From contig CALMVT010000424.1 of NCBI GenBank assembly GCA_937873175.1, positions 1 through 34,335 of the forward strand: 34,335 bases of DNA, written 5' to 3'. Both the position numbers and the translations under genes were made by a program. Below the pieces are notes generated by a model, which saw only the letters and a program-made list of their open reading frames with translations, was not told the origin of the DNA and ran no database searches. Shown here piece after piece: positions 1-14,000 of the stretch (positions are counted from its first letter, which is position 1; every line of letters starts with the position of its first letter). The DNA is from an uncultured Acetobacteraceae bacterium (GTDB taxonomy: Bacteria > Pseudomonadota > Alphaproteobacteria > Acetobacterales > Acetobacteraceae).

Positions 1-1122
1 GATCAGCTTCTTGTAGGTGCCGCGCTTCGGCTCGCTGAACTGGATCACCTCGTCGGCGTCGCTGGCCGGCTCGGTGATGCCCATGCTCGCCAGCTCGACG
101 CCCATCACCTTGAGCTTGGTGGCCAGCTTGCTGCCGAGGTACTCGGCCCCCGTGTTGGCACCCGTCACCTGGTCCGCGAACACCTTGGCCTGGTCCCACA
201 ACGGCGCCACGAGGCCGTACACCTTGCCGCGGTGCTGCACGCACTCGCCCACCGCGTAAACGTGCGGGTCGTCCGGACAGCGCATGGTGTTGTCCACCAC
301 GATGGCCCGCTCCACCGTCAGCCCGGCGCGGCTGCCGATCTCGGCGTTCGGGCGGATGCCGGCGGACACCACGACCATGTCGCAGGCAAGCCCGGTCCCG
401 TCCTTGAAGCGCAGGCCCGTGAGTTTCCCGTCCTCCACCACCAAGCCGGTCGTCATCTTGCCCGTGTGCACCTGAACGCCCATGCCCTCCATGGCACGGC
501 GCAGCATGGCGCCGCCGGTGGCGTCGAGCTGCATCTCCATCAAATGCTGCGCCAGGTGCACGACGTGCACCTCGCAGCCGTGATTCAACAAGCCGCGCGC
601 CGCTTCCAGCCCCAGCAGGCCGCCGCCGATCACCGCCGCGCGCTTGCTGCGGGCGGCTTGCGCCACGATGGCGTTGCAGTCGTCGATGCCGCGGAACGCA
701 AACACGCCGGGGCGCAGGCGGCCGTCCTCGCCCCAGATGCCCTCCATCGGCGGGATAAAGGCCCGGCTGCCGGTGGCGATCAGCAGGATGTCGTACTCTT
801 CCTGCACGCCGTTGTCGGCTGTCACCACCCGGGCGGCGCGGTCGATATGCGTCACGCGGGCGCCGCTGTGCAGGCGGATGTTGTTCTCCTTGTACCAGTC
901 CAGCGGGTTGATGTAGATTTCGCTGTGATCCTGCTGGCCGCTCAGGATGTTGGACAGCAAGATGCGGTTGTAGTTGCCGTACGGCTCGTCGCCGAACATG
1001 GTGATGCTGAACATCTCCGCACCGCCGCGGGCCAGCACCTCCTCGACGGCGCGGGCGCCCGCCATCCCGTTGCCTATCACCACCAGTTTGCGCACGGTGC
1101 TGCCGAACGTCATGCCATCCAT
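1..1122 (-). CDS. nirB: Assimilatory nitrite reductase large subunit NirB, N-terminal part (cut by window edge)
   Basis: NirB uses NAD(P)H to reduce nitrite to ammonium in the cytoplasm. Only the N-terminal 374 residues are here; the gene runs off the left edge, so the Fe-S and siroheme domains are not visible. What is visible is the FAD/NAD(P)H pyridine-nucleotide-disulfide oxidoreductase part: an FAD-binding glycine motif near residue 15 (VVIGNGMAGARAVEE), the NirB-like stretch FGDEPYGNYNRILLS, an NAD-binding VIGGGLLGLEAARGL near residue 150, and VYAVGECVQHRGKVYGL near residue 245. The ATG at 1122 has a GGGGG ribosome-binding stretch 5 nt upstream; a second in-frame ATG follows three codons later. 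It starts 9 bp after the preceding gene, as the last visible gene of the nitrate operon. A rubredoxin reductase-like protein could look similar over this part, but the context makes NirB nearly certain. Confidence 0.93.
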   Translation of the reverse strand, partial: MDGMTFGSTVRKLVVIGNGMAGARAVEEVLARGGAEMFSITMFGDEPYGNYNRILLSNILSGQQDHSEIYINPLDWYKENNIRLHSGARVTHIDRAARVVTADNGVQEEYDILLIATGSRAFIPPMEGIWGEDGRLRPGVFAFRGIDDCNAIVAQAARSKRAAVIGGGLLGLEAARGLLNHGCEVHVVHLAQHLMEMQLDATGGAMLRRAMEGMGVQVHTGKMTTGLVVEDGKLTGLRFKDGTGLACDMVVVSAGIRPNAEIGSRAGLTVERAIVVDNTMRCPDDPHVYAVGECVQHRGKVYGLVAPLWDQAKVFADQVTGANTGAEYLGSKLATKLKVMGVELASMGITEPASDADEVIQFSEPKRGTYKKLI

Positions 1123-1131
1123 GATTGCCCC

Positions 1132-1476
1132 CTAGATCTCAACCAGGCCGACATCGAGCGCCAGCGTGCCCTCGGCGCCGGACGGCGCCGCGACCAGCAG
1201 TTCCAGCCGCGTTTCAGGCATCAGGTCCTCGACGACCACAAGCGGGATGTGCACGGCGCCCTTGGCGCCGATCGGGAAGGTGCGCATAGGCGTGCCATCC
1301 CGGGTCAGCACGACGGCCACCATCTCGGACGCGCTGTTGCCGCCGCGGAAGTAGATCATCTGCGCGCGGCGGTCGCCGGGCACGCTGTAGGTCACGTCCA
1401 GGGACACCGGCGAGTCGTAGCCGCGGCCGTCGAACGCATACATCCCCGTCAGGATGCGGGGGGTGCTCTCTCTCAT
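1132..1476 (-). CDS. Small conserved-looking protein of unknown function in nas operon
   Basis: A 114-residue protein encoded between nasA and nirB. Its ATG overlaps the nasA stop as ATGA, and nirB begins 9 bp after its stop, so the three are tightly, probably translationally, coupled. I do not recognise the family. The sequence alternates short hydrophobic stretches with Gly/Pro/Asp turns (for example SLDVTYSVPG, VHIPLVVVED, TRLELLVAAP), which suggests a compact beta-sandwich. There is no signal peptide or membrane segment. It is not the Rieske-type small subunit NirD: it has no cysteine at all and no Cys-X-His pairs. Its position suggests a part in assembly of, or electron delivery between, nitrate and nitrite reductase, but that is inference from location only. 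Confidence 0.88.
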   Translation of the reverse strand: MRESTPRILTGMYAFDGRGYDSPVSLDVTYSVPGDRRAQMIYFRGGNSASEMVAVVLTRDGTPMRTFPIGAKGAVHIPLVVVEDLMPETRLELLVAAPSGAEGTLALDVGLVEI

Positions 1477-3587
1477 TCGGTCTCTCCTGTGAGCGCCGGC
1501 GCACGATCCAGGCGTACGGCGCAGGCCTTGTACTCGGGAATGCGCGACACCGGATCGAGCGCCGCGATGGTCAGGTGGTTGGCGTTGCCTTCGCCGCTCC
1601 AATGGAACGGCACGAACACGGTGTCCCGGCGGATGTCCCGCGTCAGGCGCACCGCCATCCGCGCCGTGCCCCGGCGCGTCGTGAGCTGCACCGCATCGCC
1701 GGCCCGGAGGCCATGCTGGCGTGCGGTGTCGGGGTGGATCTCGGCAAAGGCGGCCGGCTCGGCGGCGGCAAGCTCGGGAACGCGCCGGGTCTGGGTGCCG
1801 GTTTGGTATTGCCCCATGACGCGCCCGGTAGTCAGGACCAGCGGGAACTCGGCGCAGGGCTGCTCGGCGCTGCCTCGGTACTCGACAGGGTGGAAGCGGG
1901 CCAAGCCGTCGGGATGGGCGAAGCGGTCGGCAAACAGCCGGGGCGTGCCGGGGTGGGCGGCGTCCGGGCAGGGCCAGAACAGCCCGGCCTCCTCCTGCAC
2001 CCGGTCCCAGGCCATGCCGGCGTAGTCGGCCGGGCCGCCCGCCGTGGCGCGGCGGAACTCGGCGCCGGTGGTCGCCGGGTCGCCGGAGAAATGCGCTTCG
2101 GCACCGAGCCGCGCGGCCAGCCCTGCGATCACCTGCAAGTCGGTCCAAACGCCCGGCGGGGGCGGCTTGACCTGGCGGCGCAGCAGCACGCGGCCTTCCA
2201 GGTTGGTCATCGTGCCCGACTCCTCCGCCCACTGCGCGACCGGCAGCACCACGTCGGCGATTGCTGCGGTTTCCGACAGGAAGGGGTCGGCGACCACGAG
2301 CAGATCCACCGCGTCCAGCCGCTTGCGCAGCGCCGCCGCGTCCGGGGCGGAGACCAGCAGGTTGCAGGCGAACACCAGCAGCCCGCGCACCTTTGCTCCC
2401 GCCCCGCCGGCCTGTGCCAGCATCTCGCAGGCCGAAAGGCCTGGCTGCGGCAGGGTATCGGGCGAAACGCCCCAGACCTGCGCGACCTCCGCGCGGTGCA
2501 CCGGGTTGGCAAGCTGCCGGTAGCCCGGCAACTGGTCCGCCTTCTGCCCGTGTTCCCGCCCGCCCTGCCCGTTGCCCTGGCCGGTCATGCAGCCCCAGCC
2601 GCTGCCGGGCCGGCCGGGCAAACCCAGGGCGAGCGCCAGGTTGATGAAGGCCAGGGAGTTATCGACGCCCCGGCTCTGCTGCTCCGGCCCACGCCCGGAC
2701 AGGACCAGCGCGCGGGCCGCTTCCCCGAGCAGCACCGCCGCGCGCTCGACATCCCGCGCCGGCACGCCGGTGATCCGCTCCACCCGGTCCGGCCAATAGC
2801 TCGCGACGACGCGGCGCACCCGGTCCCACCCGGCGGTGCGCGCCTCGATGTAATCGGTGTCGATCAGCCGGCGGACGACCGCGACGTGCAGCAGACCGTT
2901 GGCCAACGCCGCGTCCGTGCCGGGCGTCAAAGGCAGATGCAGCGTCGCGGCGCGGGCGGTCGCGGTGCGGCGCGGGTCGGAAACGATGATCTGCGCCCCG
3001 CGGGCACGGGCCTCGTCAAAGTATTGCATGATCGGCGGCATAGTTTCCGCCGGGTTGCCGCCGCTGATCAGGATGCAATCGGCGCCGGCGATGTCCGCGA
3101 TCGGGAACGGCAGCCCGCGGTCGATGCCAAAAGCGCGAAGCCCGGCAGCGGCGGAGGACGCCATGCAGAACCGGCCGTTGTAGTCGATGTTGGCCGTGCC
3201 CAGCGCCACGCGGGCGAACTTGCCGAGCGCATAGGCCTTTTCGTTGGTCAGCCCGCCGCCGCCGAACACCGCAACTGCGTCCGGCCCGGCCGCGCCCTGG
3301 ATGGCCCGGACGCCGGCGGCGACACGGTCAAGCGCTTCGTCCCAACTTGCCGGGCGCAGCGGCGCTCCCTTGCCGTCCCGCAGCAGCGGGCCGAGCAGCC
3401 GGTCGGAACTGTTGAGCAGGGTGGCTGCGGTCCAGCCTTTGCGGCATAGCCCGCCGCGGTTGGTCGGGAAGTCCCGCGCTTCAATGCCCCAGCCCGCCTC
3501 AGTCTCGACGACGTTCATGCCGCATTGCAGGGCGCAATACGGGCAGTGCGTCGCCGTTCCCGTGGTGATTGCGATGTTGCTGTCCAT
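1473..3587 (-). CDS. nasA: Assimilatory nitrate reductase catalytic subunit NasA
   Basis: Cytoplasmic molybdenum enzyme of 704 residues that reduces nitrate to nitrite. The N-terminal [4Fe-4S] cysteines are C15, C18, C22 and C48 (HCPYCALQCGMN and GGLCRKGW). The next region is the molybdopterin oxidoreductase domain; the probable Mo-ligand cysteine is C141 in NGRFCMASSAAAG. The C-terminal molydop-binding domain ends with VFVPFHWSGEGNANHLT. There is no extra C-terminal [2Fe-2S] domain, so it resembles the shorter NarB/NasA forms. I prefer the ATG at 3587, 14 residues before the first Cys; the frame stays open to 3722 but that extension is not family-like. No Shine-Dalgarno is evident, and the start codon can pair in a small hairpin (3585-3598). 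The upstream gap of 241 bp to narK is long for an operon and may hold its own control element. Confidence 0.95.
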   Translation of the reverse strand: MDSNIAITTGTATHCPYCALQCGMNVVETEAGWGIEARDFPTNRGGLCRKGWTAATLLNSSDRLLGPLLRDGKGAPLRPASWDEALDRVAAGVRAIQGAAGPDAVAVFGGGGLTNEKAYALGKFARVALGTANIDYNGRFCMASSAAAGLRAFGIDRGLPFPIADIAGADCILISGGNPAETMPPIMQYFDEARARGAQIIVSDPRRTATARAATLHLPLTPGTDAALANGLLHVAVVRRLIDTDYIEARTAGWDRVRRVVASYWPDRVERITGVPARDVERAAVLLGEAARALVLSGRGPEQQSRGVDNSLAFINLALALGLPGRPGSGWGCMTGQGNGQGGREHGQKADQLPGYRQLANPVHRAEVAQVWGVSPDTLPQPGLSACEMLAQAGGAGAKVRGLLVFACNLLVSAPDAAALRKRLDAVDLLVVADPFLSETAAIADVVLPVAQWAEESGTMTNLEGRVLLRRQVKPPPPGVWTDLQVIAGLAARLGAEAHFSGDPATTGAEFRRATAGGPADYAGMAWDRVQEEAGLFWPCPDAAHPGTPRLFADRFAHPDGLARFHPVEYRGSAEQPCAEFPLVLTTGRVMGQYQTGTQTRRVPELAAAEPAAFAEIHPDTARQHGLRAGDAVQLTTRRGTARMAVRLTRDIRRDTVFVPFHWSGEGNANHLTIAALDPVSRIPEYKACAVRLDRAPALTGETE

Positions 3588-3828: not shown

Positions 3829-5184
3829 TTATGACGCCGCCGCCATGTTGGAGCTTGCGCCCAAGCCCATGCGCTGCGCGAGCGCTTGGTCGTAGAGGAT
3901 CTGCTCGGCCTGCTTGTGCGTTGCGGAAAACCGCACCGCGGCGGCGCAAAGGGCGCTGCACAGCACGGTCCAGCCCAGGATATACAATGCCTGCGGCAGG
4001 TTCCCCGACGCCTTCAGCAGAAAGCCGGCCGCCACCGCCCCGACATTGCCGCCGGCGCCGATGATGCCCGCGACCCCGCCCAGCGCCTTGCGGTCGATGA
4101 ACGGCACCAGCGCGTAGGTCGAGCCGCACGCCATGTGGGTGAACAAGCCGAACGCCAGCATGGCGATCACGGCAGGCAACACGGACCCCATGGTGGAGAA
4201 GGCGAGCAAACCAATGCCTTCGCCGACCATCAGCAGGCAGAGCAGCATGGTGCGGCCGTCCAAGCCCCAGCGGCGCGCCACGCGGTCGGACGCAAGGCCG
4301 CCCAGCGCGCGGGCGAACAGCGCCAAGAGGCCGAAGCTGCCGGCGGCCATGCCGGCCGAGGTCAGCGACAAGCCGAAGCGCTCCACGTAGTAGCTGGCCG
4401 CTACCGCATGGATGAAGATCTCGACGCCGAAGCAGGCGCCATAGGTGATCGCCAGCATCCACACCCGGTAGTTGCTCATCGCCGCCTTGAACACCGCAAG
4501 GCCGCCCTTCTTGCCGGAATCAACGCTGACGCCGCGGGCGCGCAGTTCCAAGATGTTGCCCTCCGGCGTGTCCTGGGTGTAGCGCCAGTACAGCACCGCC
4601 ACGACCAACATGAGCGCGCCCGGCACGAACATCGCGAGCCGCCAGCCCAACGACTGCTGCACGCCCAGGCTGACGATCGCGGCCAGGATCAGCGGCATCA
4701 CGCTCTGCGTCACGCCGCCGCCGGCGTTGCCCCAGCCGCCCACCGTCGCGTTCGCCGTGCCGACCACGTTCGGCGCGAACATGACGGAGGTATGGAACTG
4801 GGTGATGACGAAGCTCGCCCCGATGGCGCCGATGGCCAGGCGGAATACCAGGAAGCTCTCATAAGAGGTCGCGAACGCGATGCCCATCACCGGGATCGCG
4901 CCCAGCACCAGGAGTGCGGTGTAGGTGATGCGCGGCCCCCACTTGTCGCACATCGGCCCGACGGCCATGCGCACCAGGATGGTGACGCCGACGGCCGCGA
5001 TGTTGATGTTGGCGATCTGGTCGGCCGTCAGGTGGAACTCGCCCTTGATCACCGGCATCAGCGGCGACACGGCGAACCAAGCGAAGAAGCAGACGAAGAA
5101 CGCCATCCAGGTCAGATGGAAGGCACGCATCTGTGGGGTCGAGAAACTGAAAAGGTCAATTCTCGTGGCCTTTTGGGAGATCAT
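3829..5184 (-). CDS. narK: MFS nitrate/nitrite transporter, NarK/NrtP type
   Basis: Inner-membrane major facilitator protein of 451 residues, about twelve transmembrane helices, importing nitrate and possibly exchanging or exporting nitrite. Family marks visible are the first-helix stretch FFVCFFAWFAVSPLMPVIK, the loop motif GPMCDKWGPR, and the two glycine-rich nitrate signatures GGWGNAGGG near residue 150 and GIIGAGGNVGA near residue 375. Conserved arginines expected in helices 2 and 8 are plausible (for example RFHxx-like FHTSV region and the MRAFHLTW start), but I did not align them. The ATG at 5184 has AGGA just upstream. It lies 106 bp after the coiled-coil gene, with a strong hairpin in between, and is followed by nasA. 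Context and motifs agree on nitrate assimilation rather than respiration, since no narGHJI is seen. Confidence 0.95.
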   Translation of the reverse strand: MISQKATRIDLFSFSTPQMRAFHLTWMAFFVCFFAWFAVSPLMPVIKGEFHLTADQIANINIAAVGVTILVRMAVGPMCDKWGPRITYTALLVLGAIPVMGIAFATSYESFLVFRLAIGAIGASFVITQFHTSVMFAPNVVGTANATVGGWGNAGGGVTQSVMPLILAAIVSLGVQQSLGWRLAMFVPGALMLVVAVLYWRYTQDTPEGNILELRARGVSVDSGKKGGLAVFKAAMSNYRVWMLAITYGACFGVEIFIHAVAASYYVERFGLSLTSAGMAAGSFGLLALFARALGGLASDRVARRWGLDGRTMLLCLLMVGEGIGLLAFSTMGSVLPAVIAMLAFGLFTHMACGSTYALVPFIDRKALGGVAGIIGAGGNVGAVAAGFLLKASGNLPQALYILGWTVLCSALCAAAVRFSATHKQAEQILYDQALAQRMGLGASSNMAAAS

Positions 5185-5232: not shown

Positions 5233-5266
5233 GGCCGATGCCCCGGCGGTGGCCGGGGCACCGGCC
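5233..5266 (-). terminator. Strong intercistronic hairpin between coiled-coil gene and narK
   Basis: A 15-bp stem (GGCCGGTGCCCCGGC with GCCGGGGCATCGGCC, one G-T pair) with a CACC loop, 24 bp after the coiled-coil gene stop and 48 bp before the narK start. No T-run follows on the minus strand, so it is not a classical intrinsic terminator. It could be a partial terminator, an mRNA stabiliser giving different amounts of the two proteins, or an attenuator under ANTAR control. Confidence 0.5.
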
Positions 5267-5290: not shown

Positions 5291-5974
5291 TCAGGCGGCG
5301 ACGCCGAGCTTCGCGGCGATGGCCAACAGCAATTCATGGTTCGACCGCATCATCTCGGCGTTCGCCTTCAGCAGCCGGCTGTTGGCCTCAAGCAGGGCGT
5401 GGTTGGACTGCAGCGCCTCGGCGTTGCCGGCCACGGTTGAAGCGTTCGACGTGAGCACGGCGTGGTTGCGCGCCATCGCCTCGGCGTTCGCGGCCAGCGT
5501 CCGGGCATTCGCGTCCAGCAGGTCCTTGTTGCCTTCCAGCAGGCCATGGTTTGCCGTGAGCGTTTCGCTGTTGGCCGTGACCACCGCGCGGTTGTCCGCA
5601 ACCACCGCCGCGTTCCGGGCCAGCACCTCGCTGTTGGCGCCGATCCGTTCCGAGTTCTGCGCAAGCGCCTTCCGGCTGCCCTCAACCGCGGCCGCGTTGC
5701 CTTTGATGGCCGCCGAGTTGCCGGCGAGCATGTCTCGGTTCTCCGAAACCGTCGCCCGGTTCGCTTCGAGCAGCGCGTGGTTGGACGCAAGCTGCGTGGC
5801 GTTCGCCGAAAGGGTCTTGTGGTTCCCGGCCAGGGTGCCGCTGTTGCCCGCCACGATGTCGTGGTTGGCTTCCAGCAACTCGTAACTGCTTTTCAACCTT
5901 GCGGCATTTGATTGCAGCAGGCTGTTGTTCCTGATCAGCAAGGAATTATTCGTTTCAATCGTCGTCTCGGTCAA
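5291..5974 (-). CDS. Heptad-repeat coiled-coil protein with Asn core (N@d), first gene of nas operon
   Basis: 227 residues, of which residues 9-218 are 30 uninterrupted 7-residue repeats with consensus N-x-x-x-[L/V/I/M]-x-x, for example NHALLEA, NAAVVAD, NSETLTA. The first position is Asn in 28 of 30 repeats and Ser in repeats 4 and 14. The fifth is always aliphatic. In heptad terms the aliphatic residue is at a and Asn at d, a continuous N@d coiled coil. Position e is mostly Ala, Ser, His or Arg. The protein has no Pro, Cys, Trp or Phe, no signal peptide and no membrane segment, so it is probably a cytoplasmic rod of about 30 nm if fully helical. I chose the TTG at 5974 because GGAGG lies 5 nt upstream; the frame also has an ATG at 6046 without a good ribosome-binding site. 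Known N@d layers (trimeric autotransporter adhesins such as SadA) hold anions in the core. Function here is unknown. Confidence 0.85.
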   Translation of the reverse strand: MTETTIETNNSLLIRNNSLLQSNAARLKSSYELLEANHDIVAGNSGTLAGNHKTLSANATQLASNHALLEANRATVSENRDMLAGNSAAIKGNAAAVEGSRKALAQNSERIGANSEVLARNAAVVADNRAVVTANSETLTANHGLLEGNKDLLDANARTLAANAEAMARNHAVLTSNASTVAGNAEALQSNHALLEANSRLLKANAEMMRSNHELLLAIAAKLGVAA

Positions 5975-5989
5975 ATTGACCTCCAAAGG

Positions 5990-6012
5990 GCTGCCCCGGA
6001 CGGGCCGGGAGC
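5990..6012 (-). terminator. Candidate attenuator hairpin just before the coiled-coil gene
   Basis: On the minus strand CCCGG pairs with CCGGG across a 5-nt loop (5995-6009). The stem can be extended, with single-base bulges, to 5990-6012. Only TTT follows, then the GGAGG ribosome-binding site. It sits downstream of the two ANTAR-type hairpins, where a nitrate-controlled attenuator or a ribosome-site blocker would be expected. The weak T-run makes a Rho-type or translational mechanism as likely as an intrinsic terminator. Confidence 0.35.
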
Positions 6013-6028
6013 GGGAGGCACAAGCTGG

Positions 6029-6089
6029 CCACAGCGTTGTGGACATGACGCGCAGTGCGTTCGCGTTTGTCGGGACACCTCGATGTGTC
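6029..6089 (-). promoter_or_regulatory. Tandem ANTAR-type hexaloop hairpins in nas operon leader
   Basis: Hairpin 1 (6074-6089) is a 5-bp stem GACAC/GTGTC closing the hexaloop ATCGAG. Hairpin 2 (6029-6042) is CCAC/GTGG closing AACGCT. Both loops have A at position 1 and G at position 4, the rule for RNA targets of ANTAR antiterminators. They are separated by 31 nt. Hairpin 1 begins about 3 nt after the transcription start predicted from the sigma-54 site at 6103-6118. The divergent gene encodes an ANTAR protein, so target and regulator are neighbours. In hairpin 2 the first and last loop bases could pair and shrink the loop, which is the weakest point. Confidence 0.6.
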
Positions 6090-6102: not shown

Positions 6103-6118
6103 TGCACGCCGCGTGCCA
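6103..6118 (-). promoter_or_regulatory. Sigma-54 (RpoN) -24/-12 promoter of nas operon
   Basis: TGGCACGCGGCGTGCA matches the RpoN consensus TGGCACG-N4-TTGCA at all but one defined position, with GG at 6117-6116 and GC at 6105-6104 at the required spacing. The predicted start is near 6092 on the minus strand. Sigma-54 use implies an NtrC-like activator. Only a loose GCACCA half-site is visible upstream, near 6130-6140, inside the region before the divergent regulator gene. Confidence 0.7.
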
Positions 6119-6183: not shown

Positions 6184-7458
6184 ATGATGTCTGCTTTGCT
6201 GTCCCTGACCGCCGCGCCCGGCGCGCCGCCGCTCTCCGACGACCTGGACGCCGTGGGGGTCAAAGTGCTGCAAGCCGGCGGATGCTCAACTTTGCTGCAG
6301 GACGTGGTTAAAACCGCGCCTGATTTGGTTGTCATCTACGAGGAACACCCTGAATCTGCGCTTTTTTCAAGCACAATGGCGGTGAACGCCGCGGCGCCGC
6401 GGCCGGTGATTGTGTTCACCACCGACCCGGATGCGGAGAAGATCGCGCTCGCGACCCGCTCCTGCGTCCACGCCTACGTCGTGAACGGCTACAGCCAGAG
6501 CCGGCTGCGCTCGGTGATCCATCTCGCCCAGGCGCGCTTCCACCACGACCAGCTTCTCCGCAAGGAACTGACCGAGGTGAACCAGCGCTTCGCCGAACGG
6601 AAGCTGGTTGACCGGGCCAAGGGCATCCTGATGGGCGCGCGGCAACTGCGCGAGGAGGAAGCGTTCCGGGCCTTGCGCAACACGGCGATGCACACGAAGC
6701 AGCGGATCGGCCAGGTGTCGCAGCGGGTCATCGACTCTGCCCGCTATGCAGAGGCGATCAACCGCGCGGGCCAGCTCCGCATGCTGTCGCAACGCCTAGT
6801 GAAGCTTTATGCGCTCACCTGCGCGGACATCCGGCCGGAGGAAACCCGGCGGCTGTTCGCGGCCTCGCTCGGCCACGTCGATGGCAACCTGGACAGCCTG
6901 GGACGCAGCCTGTCCAAGCCGACCTTTGGCGACCTGCTCGACGCCGTGCTGACCCCTTGGGCGGAACTGCGCCAAGCTCTCGGCGCGGCGCCGCGGGCCA
7001 GGCGGCTGGCGGAGGTGGACCGGCTGGCGGAGCAGGTGCTGCTGCGGGCGGAACAGTTGACGGCCAACCTGGAGATTGCCGGGTTCGCGGCGGCGCTGCG
7101 CGTCATCAACGTCGCGGGGCGGCAGCGCATGCTGTCCCAACGGGTCGCCAAGGCGGCGCTCATGGGCGCCCTGCTCGGCGGCGCCGCAGGCAGTGCCGCG
7201 CGGGCCAGCCTGAGATCGACGATGGCCGAGCTGGTGGACGGCTTTGCCTACCTTGAAACGCTGCCGCTGAGCAATGCCGAGATCGGCCGGGAAGTCGGCC
7301 AAGCGGCCCAGGGTTGGGCGGGCCTCCAGGCCGCGCTGCCGCAGGCCGGCACCGCGGCGGGCCAGGACGGCATCGCGGGCTTCAGCGAGGCCCTGCTCGC
7401 AAGCATCGACCGCCTCACGGAGCACCTCGAACGCGGGATGCAGGCGCTGGTGCGTTGA
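6184..7458 (+). CDS. Nitrate-responsive ANTAR antiterminator: pseudo-receiver + ANTAR + two P-box (PilJ/NarX-type) segments
   Basis: 424 residues with no membrane segment, so a cytoplasmic regulator. Residues 1-125 look like a response-regulator receiver without its catalytic residues: the usual phospho-Asp position in PDLVVIY is Tyr52, and the Lys near the end is Asn101 (YVVNG). Residues 128-187 are the ANTAR RNA-binding domain (DRAKGILMGARQLREEEAF, then TKQRIGQVSQRVID). Residues 189-210 (EAINRAGQLRMLSQRLVKLY) and 306-328 (VINVAGRQRMLSQRVAKAAL) each match the P-box helix of nitrate sensors NarX/NarQ and PilJ_N domains. The arrangement suggests that nitrate binding directly changes RNA binding, replacing the two-protein NasS-NasT system and differing from Klebsiella NasR, which pairs a NIT domain with ANTAR. 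The start is the first of two adjacent ATGs; GGAGG lies 11 nt upstream, rather far. It is divergent from the nas operon and 18 bp from the convergent gene. Confidence 0.9.
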   Translation: MMSALLSLTAAPGAPPLSDDLDAVGVKVLQAGGCSTLLQDVVKTAPDLVVIYEEHPESALFSSTMAVNAAAPRPVIVFTTDPDAEKIALATRSCVHAYVVNGYSQSRLRSVIHLAQARFHHDQLLRKELTEVNQRFAERKLVDRAKGILMGARQLREEEAFRALRNTAMHTKQRIGQVSQRVIDSARYAEAINRAGQLRMLSQRLVKLYALTCADIRPEETRRLFAASLGHVDGNLDSLGRSLSKPTFGDLLDAVLTPWAELRQALGAAPRARRLAEVDRLAEQVLLRAEQLTANLEIAGFAAALRVINVAGRQRMLSQRVAKAALMGALLGGAAGSAARASLRSTMAELVDGFAYLETLPLSNAEIGREVGQAAQGWAGLQAALPQAGTAAGQDGIAGFSEALLASIDRLTEHLERGMQALVR

Positions 7459-11509: not shown

Positions 11510-13039
11510 ATGGCACGACGGCCGAACATCCTGGTTCTGATGGCCGACCAGCTCACGGCCGGCGCCTTGCCCGCCTACGGCAACCGAGTGGCCCGGACGC
11601 CGCACATGGACGCCCTGGCCGAGCGCGGCGTCGTGTTCGGCGGCGCTTACTGCAACAGCCCGCTCTGCGCCCCGTCGCGCGCCGTACTCATGTCCGGCCG
11701 ACTGCCGTCCGCCACCGGCGCCTATGACAACGCCGCCGAGTTCCCCTCGCAAGCACCGACCTTTGCTCATTACCTCCGCCACGCTGGATACCGCACGATC
11801 CTGGCCGGCAAGATGCACTTCTGCGGGCCGGACCAATTGCACGGGTTCGAGGAGCGGCTGACCACCGACATCTACCCGGCCGATTACGGTTGGACGCCGG
11901 ACTGGCAGCACCCCGATGTCCGGCTCGACTGGTATCACAACATGGACAGCGTGACGTCTGCCGGGCCGTGCGTGCGGAGCAACCAGGTCGATTTCGACGA
12001 GGAAGTGGCATTCAACGCCCGGCAGCGCTTATTCGACATCGCGCGTGACGGCGACGCGCGCCCGTTCCTCATGGTGGTGTCCCTGAGCCACCCGCACGAC
12101 CCCTTCACCATCCCCGATCCCTGGTGGAGCCGCTACGGCGACGCGGAGGTGGACATGCCGCAGGTGCGCCGGGAGGAGGTGGCGGCGGACCCGCACTCGC
12201 TCCGTTTGCGCCGGGTCTGCGCAATGGACGGGCACGAGGTGACGGAGGCGCAGGTCCGCGCCGCGCGCCGGGCATATTACGGCGCGTGCGCCTTCGTGGA
12301 TGACCAGGTAGGAATGCTGCTGGCGGCGCTGCGGAGCTGCGGGCTGGAGCAGGACACGGTGGTGGTCCTGCTGGCCGACCACGGGGAGATGCTCGGGGAG
12401 CGCGGGCTTTGGTTCAAGATGAGCTTCTTCGAGGCGGCGTGCCGGGTGCCGTTGGTCGTGCACGCGCCCGGCGTGTTCGCCGCCGGCCGGCGGGGGGCCC
12501 CGGTCTCGCTCGCCGACATCCTGCCGACGCTGGCGGAGATCGCCGGGGACGGCCTGGCGCCGGATTACGTGACTCCGCTCGACGGCCAATCGCTGCTGCC
12601 GCAACTTTCGGGCAGCGCGGGGCATGGAGAGGTGCTGGGAGAATACCTGGCGGAAGGGGCGCTCGCGCCGATCGTGATGCTGCGCCGCGGGACGGCCAAG
12701 TTCGTGCATTCCCCCGCGGACCCCGACCAGCTTTACGACCTGGCGGCCGACCCGGAGGAACGGGTGAACCTCGCCGCCGATCCGCGCTATGCCGCCGCGG
12801 TTGGCGCGTTCCGCGCCGAAGTCACGCGCCGCTGGGATTTACCGGCCCTGCACCGGGACGTGCTGGCGAGTCAGCACCGCCGCCGCTTCGTCGCCGAAGC
12901 GTTGCGTCAGGGAACGCCGACACCCTGGGACCACCAGCCGGTCCGCGATGCGAGCCGGCTTTACATCCGCAACGGCGTGAAGCTCGACGATTTGGAAGCC
13001 ATGGCTCGCCTCCCCCGCGCCGGGGCTCCTACCGTTTGA
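11510..13039 (+). CDS. betC: Choline-sulfatase
   Basis: Type I sulfatase of 509 residues that cleaves choline-O-sulfate to choline and sulfate. It starts with the sulfatase metal-site motif RPNILVLMADQLT. The catalytic cysteine that becomes formylglycine is C53 in the CAPSR signature (LCAPSRAVLMSGRLPS). GKMHFCGPDQLHGFEER, the metal-binding LLADHGEMLGERGLWFKMSFFE and a C-terminal tail ending in the choline-sulfatase region around PWDHQP fit BetC closely. There is no signal peptide, so it acts in the cytoplasm on imported choline sulfate. AGGGGA lies 4 nt before the ATG. The choline-binding protein gene follows after 16 bp, which supports choline as the product. A formylglycine-generating enzyme would be needed and is not in the window. 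Confidence 0.94.
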   Translation: MARRPNILVLMADQLTAGALPAYGNRVARTPHMDALAERGVVFGGAYCNSPLCAPSRAVLMSGRLPSATGAYDNAAEFPSQAPTFAHYLRHAGYRTILAGKMHFCGPDQLHGFEERLTTDIYPADYGWTPDWQHPDVRLDWYHNMDSVTSAGPCVRSNQVDFDEEVAFNARQRLFDIARDGDARPFLMVVSLSHPHDPFTIPDPWWSRYGDAEVDMPQVRREEVAADPHSLRLRRVCAMDGHEVTEAQVRAARRAYYGACAFVDDQVGMLLAALRSCGLEQDTVVVLLADHGEMLGERGLWFKMSFFEAACRVPLVVHAPGVFAAGRRGAPVSLADILPTLAEIAGDGLAPDYVTPLDGQSLLPQLSGSAGHGEVLGEYLAEGALAPIVMLRRGTAKFVHSPADPDQLYDLAADPEERVNLAADPRYAAAVGAFRAEVTRRWDLPALHRDVLASQHRRRFVAEALRQGTPTPWDHQPVRDASRLYIRNGVKLDDLEAMARLPRAGAPTV

Positions 13040-13055
13040 CTTTCTGGAGGATGGC

Positions 13056-14000
13056 ATGATGCAGCTCACCAAAATGCCCGTGGCGGCGATGGCGGCCTTG
13101 GCGATCTGGACGAGCGCCCAGGCGGCCGAGCCGGCGTCCTGCGCCACCGTGCGCATGGCCGACCCCGGCTGGACCGACATCACCTCGACCAATGGCGTCG
13201 CCGGCACGCTGCTCAAGGCGCTCGGCTACAAGCAGGCGGTGAACACGCTGTCGGTGCCGATCGTTTTCCAGGCGCTGTCGTCCGGCCAACTCGACGTCTT
13301 CCTGGGCAACTGGATGCCGGCGCAGACGAATTTCATCAACCCGCTGCTCAAGGAGGACAAACTGGTCGTGGCGCGTCCCAACCTGCAGCACGCGAAGTTC
13401 ACCCTGGCCGTGCCGGACTACGTCGCCGCGGCGGGCGTGCGCAGCGTAGCCGACCTCGCCCCCCACGCCGACAAGTTCGGCAAGCGCATCTACGGCATCG
13501 AGGCCGGGGCGCCGGCCAACCAGAACATCCAGCGCATGCTGACTGCCGGGGAGGACGGGCTGAAAGGCTGGAAGCTGATCGAGTCGAGCGAGACGGGCAT
13601 GCTCGGCGAGGTGGAGCGGGCGCAGCGCAGCCAGCAATGGATCGCCTTTCTCGCCTGGGAGCCGCACCCGATGAACGAGCGGTTCCGCATCACCTACCTG
13701 CAAGGCGCCGAGCAGTATTTCGGCCCAAACTACGGCAGCACCACCATCAACACGCTGACCCGCAACGGCTACGCCGCGCAGTGCCCGAACGTGGACCGTT
13801 TGTTCCGCCAGCTCAGCTTCACCGTGCCGATGGAAAACGCGCTGATGACGGCGATCAGCAGCCAGCGCATGGACGGCATGGCGGCGGCGCGCGGATGGCT
13901 GAAGGCCAACCCGGGCCAGCTTGATGCCTGGCTGGACGGGGTGACGACCTTTGACGGCAAGGACGGCCCCGCTGCCGTTCGCGCCGCGCTGGGCCTTTAA
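13056..14000 (+). CDS. choX: Choline ABC transporter periplasmic binding protein
   Basis: 314-residue OpuAC-type substrate-binding protein. Residues 1-23 are a Sec signal peptide with likely cleavage after AQA. The mature part shows the ChoX pattern: RMADPGWTDI, FLGNWMPAQ and FLAWEPHPMN carry the aromatic residues that make the cage around the choline trimethylammonium group. GGAGG lies 5 nt before the ATG at 13056; a second ATG follows directly. It sits 16 bp after betC in one transcription unit. The permease and ATPase (ChoW, ChoV) and the betaine synthesis genes betA/betB are not in the window, so it must work with subunits encoded elsewhere. It might bind choline-O-sulfate, acetylcholine or betaine as well. 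Confidence 0.93.
   Translation: MMQLTKMPVAAMAALAIWTSAQAAEPASCATVRMADPGWTDITSTNGVAGTLLKALGYKQAVNTLSVPIVFQALSSGQLDVFLGNWMPAQTNFINPLLKEDKLVVARPNLQHAKFTLAVPDYVAAAGVRSVADLAPHADKFGKRIYGIEAGAPANQNIQRMLTAGEDGLKGWKLIESSETGMLGEVERAQRSQQWIAFLAWEPHPMNERFRITYLQGAEQYFGPNYGSTTINTLTRNGYAAQCPNVDRLFRQLSFTVPMENALMTAISSQRMDGMAAARGWLKANPGQLDAWLDGVTTFDGKDGPAAVRAALGL

Follow-up and report, generated by a model that had tools for sequence, protein, structure and literature searches.

In the window, a stretch of 34,335 nt, a gene on the minus strand (5291..5974) encodes a coiled-coil protein of 227 amino acids with an asparagine core of 30 heptads. The gene is real and under purifying selection, its regulatory tie to nitrate appears strong from the signals in the surrounding sequence, and by analogy with known coiled coils a function in holding anions is plausible.

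The coiled-coil gene and its conservation

The open reading frame is read from position 5974 down to 5291 and starts with TTG, with the Shine-Dalgarno sequence GGAGG (5980..5984, minus strand) five bases upstream. After a short start, heptads 2–31 make up exactly 30 repeats without a gap, in which Asn occupies the key column 28 times and Ser twice, while four positions further on there is Leu, Val, Ile or Met in every heptad of the window protein (30/30), followed by a closing heptad with Ile in the place of Asn. This recount, made on the minus strand, agrees exactly with the initial annotation, and its statement that the protein lacks an export signal is shared by us since no signal peptide could be seen by inspection. 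When the invariant aliphatic residue is set as position a the Asn falls at d, while position e is Ala, His, Ser, Arg or Asn and position g Leu, Thr, Ala or Val. The protein contains no Cys, Trp, Phe or Pro. The pattern N-x3-[LIVM] in a single register was seen 28 times compared to a maximum of 8 across 20,000 shuffles, and the heptad pattern is far beyond chance expectation.

Three independent homologues were identified, L001 (on a contig of genome G163), L002 (on a contig of G108) and L007 (genome G017), with 96%, 87% and 58% identity to the window protein, respectively. All three carry Asn at 30/30 key positions, the two core Ser being specific to the window protein, and for the four homologues including the window this amounts to Asn at d in 118/120 and an aliphatic residue at a in 120/120 cases (Leu in 82/120). 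Over 222 codons there are no insertions or deletions among the homologues. The window protein and L007 share 94% of their residues at d, 75% of those at a and 39–56% at the remaining positions, and between homologues dN ranges from 0.02 to 0.32 and dS from 0.22 to 1.58. The Asn are encoded by both codons (AAC 26, AAT 4), which argues that the repeat is not a DNA repeat artefact, and the codon usage shows nothing unusual. Asn at 30/30 positions, a fixed length, dN far below dS and the use of both Asn codons together argue that selection at the protein level acts on both the Asn core and the length. A low-complexity or wrong-frame artefact is ruled out by dN/dS, the constant length and the shuffles. 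The C-terminal tail LLxAIAAKLGVxA, with a hydrophobic I where Asn would stand, is also conserved.

AlphaFold, run on a single chain with an alignment of the four sequences, gave one continuous helix covering residues 2–223 (mean pLDDT 94), together with a low pTM of 0.38 as expected for an isolated long rod. The model supports a helical coiled-coil rod, ~33 nm in length at 0.15 nm per residue, and the 30 unbroken and strict heptads would argue for self-association in a supercoil.

With an aliphatic residue at a and Asn at d in consecutive heptads, the protein shows the defining pattern of N@d coiled coils and, judged from its sequence, resembles the N@d stalks of adhesins such as SadA, UspA1 and OMP100 but is not an adhesin itself. 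Adhesin stalks are exported, vary in length and have an anchor in the outer membrane, whereas the coiled-coil protein is 227 amino acids long with a fixed number of 30 heptads and is apparently co-regulated with nitrate genes; since it has neither a signal nor a YadA beta-barrel anchor (no Pfam match to an anchor within the 227 amino acids) it does not belong among the trimeric autotransporter adhesins. The other Asn-heptad proteins found were all adhesins (in G639, G759 and G1067), by inspection with a signal and a YadA-type anchor, with Ala, Thr, Lys or His at position e as known for N@d stalks, and with a longest run of 15 heptads. The longest N@d run reported for an adhesin is 19 heptads. 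That position e lacks Thr had been raised earlier as an objection to this likeness, a weak one considering that the adhesins found have Ala, Lys and His at e and that OMP100 has Ala, Ser, Arg or Lys (PMC4786415).

Gene order and genomic distribution

Downstream of the coiled-coil gene and on the same strand are genes for a NarK-type nitrate/nitrite MFS transporter (3829..5184), a NasC-type assimilatory nitrate reductase with the conserved start MDSN (1473..3587), a small ORF (MRESTPRILTGMYAFDG..., 1135..1476) with no Pfam match and a FAD/NAD-dependent oxidoreductase, probably NirB-like, that is cut by the end of the window (1..1122). This gene order, together with the promoter and leader described below, supports the proposal that the coiled-coil gene is the first gene of a nitrate assimilation operon. 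In another part of the window (11510-14000, plus strand) a choline sulfatase adjoins a glycine-betaine/choline-type binding protein.

Just 3' of the coiled-coil gene a 15-bp hairpin without U-tract was found (5233..5266, minus strand). The window, L002 and L007 each have a hairpin of 14–15 bp after the stop codon, differing in sequence (fold z -3.4, -3.4 and -4.7, respectively), and the equivalent in L001 is a weaker, 10-bp hairpin that is not significant. Such a hairpin may function in processing or protection of the mRNA, giving more coiled coil than NarK.

The coiled-coil gene is present in 4/4 genomes of the genus, which belongs to the Acetobacteraceae. Searches of the family, order, class and phylum samples revealed no homologues in other genera, only adhesins, and none were found in phages, plasmids or viral contigs, nor did narK have an N-heptad gene ahead of it in any of four further genera. 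The linkage to nitrate genes, on which the initial annotation had let its reading depend, was checked and is retained, as all four homologues are located directly upstream of a narK. In genome G017 the main nas locus (L010, G017:C403) consists of regulator, leader, a 25-residue ORF starting with TTG, and narK, with no coiled coil. The stop codon of the 25-residue ORF overlaps the start of narK and the ORF occupies the site of the coiled-coil gene in the relatives; it may be what a deletion left behind, or else a leader peptide of ancestral origin. The coiled-coil gene of G017 is intact on another contig (L026, G017:C155), with transposase genes on both sides, next to a narK that breaks off after about residue 234, and this pair comes with a sigma-54-type promoter and ANTAR-type hairpins of its own. 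The coiled-coil gene is linked to narK everywhere, yet not every nas operon requires it, given that the nas locus of G017 has none.

Promoter, leader RNA and regulator

When analysing the region upstream of the coiled-coil gene by pattern matching, a sigma-54-type promoter (TGGCACG-N4-GTGCA) was identified at 6103..6118 on the minus strand with 11/12 consensus bases, while the corresponding promoter of L002 has 12/12. The pattern has a single match in the window, with 0.09 expected; when one mismatch is allowed the count rises to three against 1.9 expected, and it is therefore the recurrence of the promoter in relatives that carries the weight. Two hairpins on the minus strand follow the -12 element at distances of about 13 and 57 bases, P1 (GACAC-ATCGAG-GTGTC, 6074..6089) and P2 (core CCAC-AACGCT-GTGG, 6026..6045), both having a hexaloop with A at position 1 and G at position 4. 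Two small hairpins with such hexaloops constitute the target of ANTAR proteins (PMC3369931). Promoter and both hairpins occur with constant spacing in five leaders (window, L001, L002, L010 and L007), and in L007, the 58% homologue, they are kept although most of the leader sequence has changed, with one mismatch per stem. Covariation over the four close leaders revealed one compensatory pair, not significant compared to shuffles. The linker between P1 and P2 is ~28 nt while the spacing in eut leaders is 5–12 nt, which is a reservation on the ANTAR reading.

Further downstream a hairpin (5979..6019, minus strand) would pair CCTCC with the Shine-Dalgarno sequence GGAGG and encloses an inner GC hairpin; its halves are invariant in the four close leaders (window, L001, L002 and L010), in all of which this pairing can form. 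A canonical terminator with U-tract (T7) is found in L010; the leaders of the window, L001 and L002 lack one, and their hairpin covers the Shine-Dalgarno sequence instead. The leader may accordingly exert control by antitermination, by release of the Shine-Dalgarno sequence, or by both. With the hairpin hiding the Shine-Dalgarno sequence, the ANTAR protein might act on translation besides termination. A search with Rfam gave nothing above the gathering score, the match to sX6 being the hairpin after the coiled-coil gene.

Divergent from the operon lies a gene (6184..7458, plus strand) for a putative regulator with an ANTAR domain followed by PilJ domains, both above cut-off. Its second P-box INVAGRQRMLSQ (from 7105) fits exactly the nitrate N-box pattern [IVL][ND]xAGxQRML[ST]Q of McpN (PMC6381276), and the first P-box departs from it at one position. 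The fusion is possibly a nitrate sensor and antiterminator in one protein. A literature search gave no paper devoted to an ANTAR-PilJ fusion, and at E 1e-50 the regulator has no counterpart in the 288 other genomes that make up the class sample. A second ANTAR protein of the genome, AmiR-like (L025, G000:C333:6885-7046), lies among genes for an ABC transporter and urease accessory proteins and was set aside as belonging to a urea/amide-type cluster.

The dual A1/G4 hairpins 5' of the first gene and an ANTAR regulator with a predicted nitrate input are traits of ANTAR-controlled nitrate operons, and the arrangement resembles the NasT/NasR-type regulons, in which an ANTAR regulator and such a dual hairpin likewise precede nitrate assimilation genes; here, in contrast, the regulator has PilJ domains and a coiled coil is the first structural gene. 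The sigma-54-type promoter, the dual hairpin, the ANTAR-PilJ architecture and the N-box are all sequence evidence of control of a nitrogen/nitrate type, which is thereby much better supported than in the initial annotation.

Possible roles of the rod

The reading that we favour, tentatively and at less than even confidence, is that of a cytoplasmic, self-associating, parallel coiled-coil rod with an anion core, belonging to the nitrate regulon and acting beside NarK. The rod would be produced under nitrogen limitation in the presence of nitrate. If it behaves as known N@d coils, its Asn would form core rings that hold anions, leaving the rod unstable when empty and stabilised as anions fill the core; under nitrate induction these anions may be nitrate, nitrite or chloride, and the rod could serve close to NarK, either as a scaffold stabilised by anions or as a local anion reservoir. 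N@d trimers bind anions and the stability of some depends on them (PMC12933892, PMC4786415). Human L1ORF1p is a non-secreted, metastable trimer with a chloride-binding Asn at d (PMC5940361), differing in having one Asn d-layer in 14 heptads and in being fused to RNA-binding domains, and this protein together with the anion-holding trimers favours an anion-stabilised cytoplasmic rod. The best PDB sequence match (E 0.03) was to designed Asn-containing trimers (6nx2 and relatives), similar in their Asn-rich helices but designed proteins with no homology.

Several observations weigh against the anion-core rod or limit it. GCN4 trimers lose stability with each N@d layer, and the chloride affinity inferred for a GCN4 N@d variant is weak, 0.1–1 M (PMC12933892). 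With one anion per three-chain layer, holding 1 mM anion needs ~60,000 chains per fL, and because of this number and the weak affinity a scaffold or an assembly switch appears likelier than a bulk buffer or nitrate store, unless the affinity is much higher. That position a is mostly Leu, and not the Ile or Val of N@d trimers, speaks against a typical trimer and makes a tetramer or another bundle possible. The congener whose nas operon lacks the gene and whose copy lies beside a truncated narK speaks against an essential role, and the gene is restricted to one genus among those sampled. The more specific proposal, that nitrate or nitrite is bound in a stack of 30 Asn rings and that the substrate of the operon itself thereby switches rod assembly, as an anion-gated rod or reservoir beside the transporter, we consider doubtful.

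Possible as well, though also short of an even chance, is a purely structural part for the protein, as a rod or spacer of the nitrate regulon whose Asn only fix register and oligomeric state and keep so long a coil soluble, with bound anions being incidental and no role in handling nitrate. N@d layers do define trimeric state and register (PMC5940361), the Asn cores in adhesin stalks have been interpreted as a means of holding the chains in a soluble, loosely folded state (PMC3297439), and the fixed length of 30 heptads is ruler-like. A cytoplasmic rod, however, has no need of export competence, Asn at 30/30 positions goes far beyond what setting a register needs, and the control by nitrate would be left unexplained.

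An origin as a captured piece of a trimeric autotransporter adhesin stalk, now a lineage-specific accessory travelling with narK and having little or no nitrate function, is unlikely. It would fit the distant profile matches, which are adhesin stalks only, the occurrence in one genus, the nas operon without the gene and the position of the G017 copy among transposases, but not the purifying selection, the exact retention of 30 heptads or the promoter and leader conserved even at the separate G017 locus. Still less probable is a role as a binding partner, the helical protein attaching to the PilJ domains of the regulator, which are helical bundles (PMC6381276), or to NarK and thereby adjusting induction or uptake. 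The place of the gene as first in the operon and divergent from the regulator, and the conserved tail with I for Asn, would suit a partner; G017, however, has regulator and narK together with no coiled-coil gene between them.

A seven-residue beta-roll of the ice-binding kind is barely credible: Pfam PF21300 (LbR_Ice_bind) did match above its cut-off with 37.8 bits and the grass protein 3ult weakly, but the single helix predicted with pLDDT 94, the Asn-to-aliphatic spacing and Ala/Leu/Glu content that fit a helix, and the invariant aliphatic a oppose it, and the PF21300 match is taken as a compositional false positive. The NCBIfam match to HmpF (29 bits against a cut-off of 200) was likewise set aside as generic coiled-coil similarity.

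No comparable nitrate-operon context for an Asn-core coil was found in the literature searched. The Asn-core coils of adhesins are explained by the needs of secretion, and a nearly pure case in the cytoplasm would offer a clean test of whether an ion-holding core does something in its own right. With every Asn under selection and nitrate-type signals in front of the gene, the coiled coil would be a component of a kind new to nitrate assimilation in bacteria.
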